From contig CM034138.1 in NCBI GenBank assembly GCA_019914995.1, positions 3,162,001-3,226,000 on the forward strand: 64,000 bases of DNA, read 5' to 3'. Of the stretch, positions 14,240-17,200 are shown piece by piece. Origin of the DNA: Acanthochlamys bracteata (taxonomy: Eukaryota; Streptophyta; Magnoliopsida; Pandanales; Velloziaceae). The translations under genes and the position numbers were made by a program. Within the stretch, counting starts at the first letter, position 1; each line of letters begins with the position of its first letter. A model generated the notes under the pieces. It was given only the letters and a program-made list of their open reading frames with translations, made no database searches and had not been told where the DNA came from.

Positions 14240-17200
14240 TCATGTCCCAGCAGGTTGTACGAAATTGAGACCAGATTGACGCCCAACATGTTCTGGGATC
14301 AACTTGTTGATAAGCTCTGGAGAAGCACCTGCCAGCTGCAATGGAAAGCGATATATCTCTGTAAGCAACCACCAGCTAGGAGATACATTCAACTAGATGA
14401 ATAAAAGATTTTTCAGTTTTGAGTTTACAGCAGCAAGGACTATATGAAGAACACATGCTAGTTTAGTGCAAGTGTGTTGACCAATACCCCATACTATTAA
14501 TAGCCAACCAAGAACTTAAGTTTTTCAAAAAATGTCGGATCACAGACGCAAACTGTCAAAAGGGTGGCACAATGTTTATCAAGATTTGAGAGTATGAACA
14601 CTGAGAGGACTATATGAAATCAGTATAGTTGTTCCACGAGGCAAGGGATTTTATATATGCAAGTGTTTGATACCTATTTGCATAGCCATGAGAAAGAAGA
14701 ATCTTACTTCCTGTTTAAAATCAAATAGTGGAGGTAGAGGACGACCATTTGGCAAGCGTGCATTTAGTTCCCGAAGCTCATCAAAGAAGGAATGCGCACA
14801 AGCTTCAAGCTGCAAAAAATCAATTTTATTCGTTATCTATTAAGTGTTTGACTGATTACGAACTAAAAACAGTCCATTATCATCAACATAGTGGCAGCAA
14901 ATGTTACATGAAATAACTAGTAGACGTATGTCAGAAACAAGTACTTGCTTAACTCAAACATAGGGTACGAAGGTTTAAAGTTGACAAATAATGACATTAA
15001 TGGTTTCAAAAGCTAAAAGTGCCATAGACTGATACCAATCTCCACAACCAGACACCACGACATATGATCCATTTACACTTTTTCATTTGAAAACATTAGG
15101 TCAACGATGAAAAGTTATCATTATTTAATATTCAGCTAGATATCAGGTTGAACAGTCTTCTTGTAATGAGAAATGGAACGAAACTCCTTAAGGTATATAC
15201 AAATTATTGCAACAAACAAGTAAATATTGTGCTACAATTAAGGAAAAGAGCACTAATTTAAATGAACTCACAGCAGTACATCGAAGACTCGGTAAATATT
15301 GAAGAAGTCGTGATGCCAGATCTATTGCTTCTGGAGGCATCCGTTTGTGGAAAATCTGGGAAAAAAGAAGATAGCCACATTTGCCACAAGCCAAAAGTCT
15401 AGAAACTTTAAAAAACGTTCATCTTCTAAATGAAAATGTTCACCATGATAAATAGAAATCAGAAGAAAGTTTAGTTTGATGATAACTCAGCTCTATCAGG
15501 AGTTTTACCTCAAATGTACAAAAGAGAGACACCGAAAAGATGGGGTCTTCATTCGAAAAACAAAGCCTTCTCAAGAATTCAATAAACATACTCTAGTTCC
15601 ACTGTAAGCATAGCTATATTTTGAAACCTATCATTCTCCGAAGAAACAATAATGGAAAACGAGGCAATATGAAACAATAATGGAAACAAACCTTATGCCA
15701 AGGATGAGGTTTTATTTAGGAAACCTAAATTCAGTATAATGAGGGTTCATGCATCGAATTTCTTCTCGTGTTGGAGTACCAAGAACCTAGAAAAGAGGTC
15801 TTACTGTAGTCAAATAGTTCTTTTTTAATAAAAATCTTCACATTATAGAAAGTACATACCTTGATTATCTCAACAAGCTGACCCACAGCATTTTCTCCTG
15901 GGAATAGAGGCTAACATATGAAGAAGAGGAATCTAGTGAGTAAAGCACCTCCTTTTTACCATATCACTGAAGCAGCATAAAAGATCAAACAGTCAAACGT
16001 ACTTGTCCAAGAAGTAGTTCAGCAAGCACACAACCAGCTGACCATATATCAATGAATGTTGTATATTCAGTAGCACCAAATATGAGCTCAGGGGCACGAT
16101 AATAACGAGAACAAATATATGATATATTAGCTTCACCACTGACCTGAAATTAGCAAAATATCAGATGAAAATAGGCGATAAAATAACAAACTGAAGAATT
16201 TAAAGAAAAGTGAGTTAGCCTTCAAGCCGTTTTACATCCCATGTATATGCATTTCAACGTATACCTGATCATGTAAAACAAATTTCCAATATAACAAATA
16301 AATAAACGTTTATTTTGCAACGAGACAAAAAAAAAAGACGAAAGGCACTTCTTGATTCGAAGAATCCATTAGATAGCAGGATCAGAGTACTAGAATTTTC
16401 GCTTTTGACCTCTTGCAAGAATACCACTTAGATTTCTCCATGCTGAAACATGGAATCTACTGCTGAGTTGCAACAAAATATACAAGAACTGATATCTCTA
16501 TATATGAACCAAGACATTCTCAAAGAATTTTAACACATACACATCAAAAACCACCATTACGGTAGTAGTAAAGCAATATTGACTGCTCCGAGCTAGTTAA
16601 AGAATCTCAAAGGTTTCATGCAATTGGTGTTAAGTACTAGAGGCACAACTTAATACATATATTGAGCATATTGAATTCAAAAATCCCCATCTAAATATTA
16701 CACAAAGAACTCTCTACATCAAGGAACGCACTGATGCACAATCATGTCATATAGAAGTAGGTAGTTAGATAATGTTCAGCAGTTTGTACATAGTTACCTT
16801 TACAAACTTAAGTATTCTTTTAGTAACTACGAAATCTAAAGCTATAAAGTAAAACAAAACAAAATTTGTTGTCTTTAATATGTACATAACACTCAGATCA
16901 GCAATATTCATCGAATATTAAACAATATGTTCTCTATAATAATCACAAAACATGGACTTAACAAAATGAAATACGTCAAATAAGAAGGAAACAGAATGAA
17001 ACTGCGGAACATTTTCTACTATAATTCAAGAAATACCAAAATCTTGGCGCTCCCAAAATCACAAAGCTTTACTTGGTGGGTAAGAGGATCAACCTGCAAC
17101 GAAATCAATTACAAATAAGAAAGATAATCACAGATTGATGAATAAATTTACATAAGTTGGAGAAAGAAGGAAGCATACCAGAACATTTTGTGGCTTCACA

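Follow-up and report, generated by a model that had tools for sequence, protein, structure and literature searches.

Does the interrupted reading frame of a GSK3 kinase gene on contig C13 reflect the loss of a duplicate gene in the plant itself, or a base dropped from its assembly? The window, i.e., the whole stretch of 64,000 nucleotides analyzed here (C13:3162001-3226000 of a 195.5 Mb, 557-contig genome), carries genes that point to a flowering plant as host. Its minus strand harbors, between positions 19182 and 14240, a GSK3 gene of 12 coding exons (Table 1); its model, like those of the nine other GSK3 genes below, was assembled manually from tblastn matches and splice signals. All 11 introns have GT..AG ends, every exon is in phase 0, and the exons except exon 9 (114, 87, 60, 273, 75, 57, 141, 51, 84, 102, and 96 nt) are each a multiple of three, in agreement with the first-pass annotation, which had found eleven of the twelve exons in order. 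The residues ahead of the lesion match the Pkinase domain (E 7.2e-48), with a plant-like kinase (8qcw) and GSK3 beta as the best PDB chains, and the catalytic Lys 100, the HRD (195-197) and DFG (215-217) motifs, and the activation-loop Tyr 231 are all present.

Table 1. Features of the C13 GSK3 gene (positions in the window).
Feature	Position	Strand	Evidence
Exon 1, start codon, variable N-terminus (38 aa)	19069..19182	-	ATG open frame with GT donor; the C14 homeolog has a similar exon
Exon 2	17841..17927	-	tblastn to paralogs, GT-AG
Exon 3, glycine-rich loop	17692..17751	-	tblastn pieces, splice sites
Exon 4, VAIKK lysine (residue 100) and LVMEYVP	17331..17603	-	tblastn pieces, splice sites, motif
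Exon 5, HRDVKPQN	17179..17253	-	tblastn pieces, splice sites, motif
Exon 6, CDFGSAK	17037..17093	-	tblastn pieces, splice sites, motif
Exon 7, activation loop, Tyr 231 (equivalent to BIN2 Y200; PMC7101348, in extract)	16003..16143	-	
Exon 8, 13-residue segment with D-to-G change common to C13 and C14	15860..15910	-	
Exon 9, 95 nt vs 96, TREE motif and frameshift	15692..15786	-	model and gap-sliding comparison
Premature TAA from frameshift; follows residue 310, with the last exon junction 206 nt downstream	15712..15714	-	
Exon 10, open in original frame, out of frame past lesion	15272..15355	-	
Exon 11, open in original frame, out of frame past lesion	14708..14809	-	
Exon 12, original stop codon	14240..14335	-	

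Exon 9 is 95 nt long in this gene and 96 nt long in all nine other GSK3 genes of the genome, whose models are open to a stop codon in exon 12 (9/9; combined coding sequence 11,196 nt). The C13 frame runs for 310 residues into a TAA, and approximately 101 residues are lost (of 411 alignment positions, with the broken codon masked); the frameshift, the stop, and the removal of some 100 residues that include the end of the C-lobe, all of which had been claimed from the first reading of the sequence, are thereby confirmed. If the assembly is right, the gene does not hold a complete C-lobe in one open frame, and the last residue of any protein made from it would correspond to BIN2 279, with the end of that lobe missing. 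The 13-residue family reading that had been proposed for the repaired site has to be replaced, since the sequence around the lesion is F[RK]FPQIKAHPWHK in each of the nine paralogs, and the Pro of IKPHP is private to the C13 copy.

The position of the missing base bears on the main rival explanation, namely a residual assembly error in which the gene is intact in the plant and one base was dropped from the assembly. A one-base gap was slid along exon 9, and the mismatches were counted against each of the nine paralogs. The best position falls in the Gln codon in all nine comparisons; the first base of this codon is the unique optimum against the C14 and C18 genes, and against the other seven paralogs the gap in the Gln codon is tied with other positions, with its third base (G) among the ties in every case. 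Against the closest paralog, on C14, a gap in the Gln codon leaves 5 mismatches, a gap in the AAA run 6, and a gap in the AAAA run 8. The loss of a homopolymer base was accordingly rejected as the simplest reading because placing the gap in either A run adds one or more mismatches relative to C14. The earlier argument for a homopolymer error is thus weakened, and the check suggested with it, counting A runs of three versus four in sequencing reads, targets the wrong feature. Another kind of sequencing error is compatible with this placement. Among the best candidates scored in the assembly, a 301-base query matched only itself at 100% and nothing else above 85%, so that no second copy or alternative haplotype was found there.

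Two protein searches, with exons 4 and 7, identified at least 10 GSK3 loci among the best candidates scored (on C13, C14, C12, C7, C8, C11, C10, C2, C1, and C18), and the score falls sharply from these ten to other kinases. The C7 and C10 genes contain one GC-AG intron each. In a tree of 12 sequences, the C13, C14, C12, and C7 genes form one clade apart from the other six (support 100/99), and these four read LVMEYVP where the other six have LVLE; we take the Met of this motif to be a marker of the BIN2 group. The clade is most likely the BIN2 group (plant group II), to which the first-pass annotation had assigned the C13 gene; the four-gene clade fits that assignment and, in a tree built from sequences other than those of Arabidopsis, leaves it a probable rather than a proven one. 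The group membership of the Arabidopsis GSK3 genes is described in PMC10014926 (in extract). The TREE motif, at residues 292-295 of the C13 protein, is found in nine of nine paralogs and therefore does not single out the group. According to extracts of the sources, Y200, V247, and F277 are numbered residues of BIN2 (PMC7101348) and its TREE motif occupies positions 261-264 (PMC9335153); Y200, V247, T261, and F277 all correspond to C13 residues at a constant offset of 31, as counted for V247 and F277 on the alignment of C13 with its paralogs. Such an offset shows colinearity with BIN2 and would hold for other GSK3 groups too. The C13 gene shares with BIN2, BIL1, and BIL2 the kinase motifs, the activation-loop Tyr, and TREE, and differs from them in its broken frame in exon 9.

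The C14 homeolog is intact and lies within a colinear block. The segment of the window between 2 and 45 kb matches C14:4400-4345 kb in inverted orientation; the match comprises seven consecutive segments, and some repeats match away from this line. Within this block, the window has an open kinase frame at 39455-40936, presumably of a CIPK-like kinase, and its C14 counterpart (C14:4347679-4349594) is found only as fragments spread over three frames, the aligned portions of which contain at least four stops. The loss of duplicates therefore does occur in this block. After duplication of a genome or a segment, duplicate genes are sorted between the copies, and the C14 side has lost a kinase gene as the C13 side is losing a GSK3 gene, as expected from such sorting. 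A scan for frame breaks over the whole homeologous block was dominated by non-coding matches and was too noisy to serve as an error baseline, giving only the lead to the broken kinase homeolog; in the actin family, which was considered for the same purpose, introns were read through and the stops were uninterpretable. The pattern is that of the fractionation of whole-genome duplicates, i.e., homeologous regions in colinear order in which either side can carry the broken copy and the other the intact one, and nothing distinctive was found in the C13/C14 case.

The selective constraint on the two copies was estimated with a codon model of 362 codons in seven genes. Omega is 0.13 for C13, 0.07 for C14, and 0.023 for the rest; the pair taken together (0.10) differs from the remainder (0.023) with 2dlnL 19.9 and p 8e-6. 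Omega lies above the background for C13 (p 4e-4) and for C14 (p 0.045), and that of C13, the likelihood interval of which is wide (approximately 0.05 to 0.6), is also below 1 (p 0.026). These tests suggest that constraint acted on the C13 gene over most of its past and was relaxed afterward. The two copies do not differ significantly from each other, either in omega (p 0.54 in the codon model) or in polarized nonsynonymous to synonymous changes (12:18 in C13 and 7:21 in C14; Fisher p 0.27); thus, selection provides no independent proof that the C13 gene is dead and sets no lower bound on the age of the lesion. If all the excess omega had arisen after the lesion, 6-11% of the C13 branch would have been neutral, a figure that follows arithmetically from the codon model, and a single indel with no further stop fits such a fraction under assumed indel rates. 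The picture is one of constraint over a long period, after which both copies relaxed somewhat and C13 broke late.

By parsimony, the C13 protein carries 10 private amino acid changes in residues 57-376, four of which fall at sites where the nine other genes are all identical, and those beyond the lesion include A313P, S339L, P361L, and N376D. The C14 protein carries four private changes in the same region, two at sites identical in the other genes. These counts leave out five ambiguous N- or C-terminal differences, and three more changes per side lie outside residues 57-376. The description of the C13 gene as “otherwise intact” consequently holds for its frames and splice sites but not for its protein sequence. 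At residue 279, which our own count from the exon coordinates places at window positions 15872-15874 in exon 8, both C13 and C14 have Gly, whereas the eight other GSK3 genes have Asp (GENAV-D-QLVEIIK); the Gly is an unusual substitution for a kinase that is otherwise intact.

The sequences compared show the frameshift in C13, the intact paralogs, the colinear duplicate block, and, for the pair, a constraint that is relaxed yet still real. We consider a recent pseudogenizing frameshift, or a segregating loss allele, in a redundant C13 duplicate to be the best explanation, with a probability of roughly two in three. This reading draws on exon 9 of 95 rather than 96 nt, the colinear block, the omega of the pair, the private changes, the gap in the Gln codon, the loss of the kinase on C14, and a TAA lying 206 nt before the last exon junction. 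The deletion would then have occurred in the plant and not only in its assembly. C13 and C14 would represent a duplicated GSK3 pair, most likely of the BIN2 group, in which a one-base deletion in exon 9 led to an immediate TAA and turned the C13 copy into a pseudogene or a segregating loss allele. Nonsense-mediated decay follows a 50-55 nt rule, and a stop at this distance from the last junction should make the C13 transcript its target; the transcript is expected to be degraded, and any protein would terminate inside the C-lobe and would probably be inactive as a kinase. The loss may be tolerated since the C14 homeolog and the clade members on C12 and C7 are intact and could be redundant with it. 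That the gene contains only one disabling lesion counts against its being a pseudogene.

The same observation speaks for a residual assembly error, which we regard as less likely but as the main rival. The rest of the gene is in order (11 introns with GT-AG ends, every exon but one of the 12 in frame, and no further lesion), the constraint on C13 is not significantly unlike that on C14, and single indels, as found here, are the commonest kind of long-read error. Against this, the missing base aligns to a position outside any homopolymer, the frame is broken in none of the nine paralogous coding sequences over their combined length, and an indel error leaves several unusual substitutions in C13 unexplained. 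A quite different proposal, which we hold to be very improbable, is that C13 and C14 departed together from the GSK3 norm before the break and that the loss of C13 was an adaptive reduction in the dosage of a brassinosteroid repressor; it is suggested by the relaxed constraint on both copies and by the loss in both of the Asp before QLVEIIK, which adjoins the residue matching BIN2 V247. Also very improbable is a functional altered product, either from skipping of exon 9, which (as all exons are in phase 0) leaves an open frame of 379 residues, or as a 310-residue protein with a role of its own (dominant-negative or scaffold). In its favor, the frame also stays open in six combinations that pair a cryptic donor in exon 9 with a different acceptor, and omega in C13 is below 1; against it, a skipped exon 9 would take with it the TREE motif and some of the C-lobe, alternative intron 8 sites gave no rescue (0 found), and the constraint can be entirely older than the lesion.

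A frameshift that inactivates a redundant duplicate, as preferred here, is ordinary biology. GSK3-family genes inactivated in cereals, as is proposed for C13, are described in extracts of two reports: a loss-of-function allele of OsGSK5 in rice (PMC9335153) and edited knockouts of HvGSK1.1 in barley, obtained by frameshift or premature stop (PMC10815662). The cases are not identical, given that OsGSK5/OsSK41 is the name of a rice gene, the barley lines were made by editing, and the C13 gene is one copy of a duplicate pair. Arabidopsis BIN2, BIL1, and BIL2 are redundant (PMC9335153, in extract), and an extract on the GSK family of cotton mentions gene loss after polyploidy in general terms (PMC6280398). 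Among the matches listed for BIN2/GSK3 pseudogenes and for frameshifts or premature stops in shaggy-like kinases, none reported the C13 gene, a negative that says little. If real, the lesion would mean that one GSK3 duplicate of the brassinosteroid type was lost naturally while three intact clade members were retained, a minor instance of how redundancy decays once genes have been duplicated that opens no new question; an automatic gene model at this locus may be wrong.

Two further features were observed along the C13/C14 comparison. The AT-rich segment at window positions 11280-12344 contains imperfect inverted repeats; its two halves match C14 4409348-4409804 in opposite orientations, and it is perhaps a fold-back transposable element. 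The segments at 34816-35084 and 36439-36724 are similar to each other and both match the same place on C14 (4392033-4392315), which makes them a dispersed repeat.
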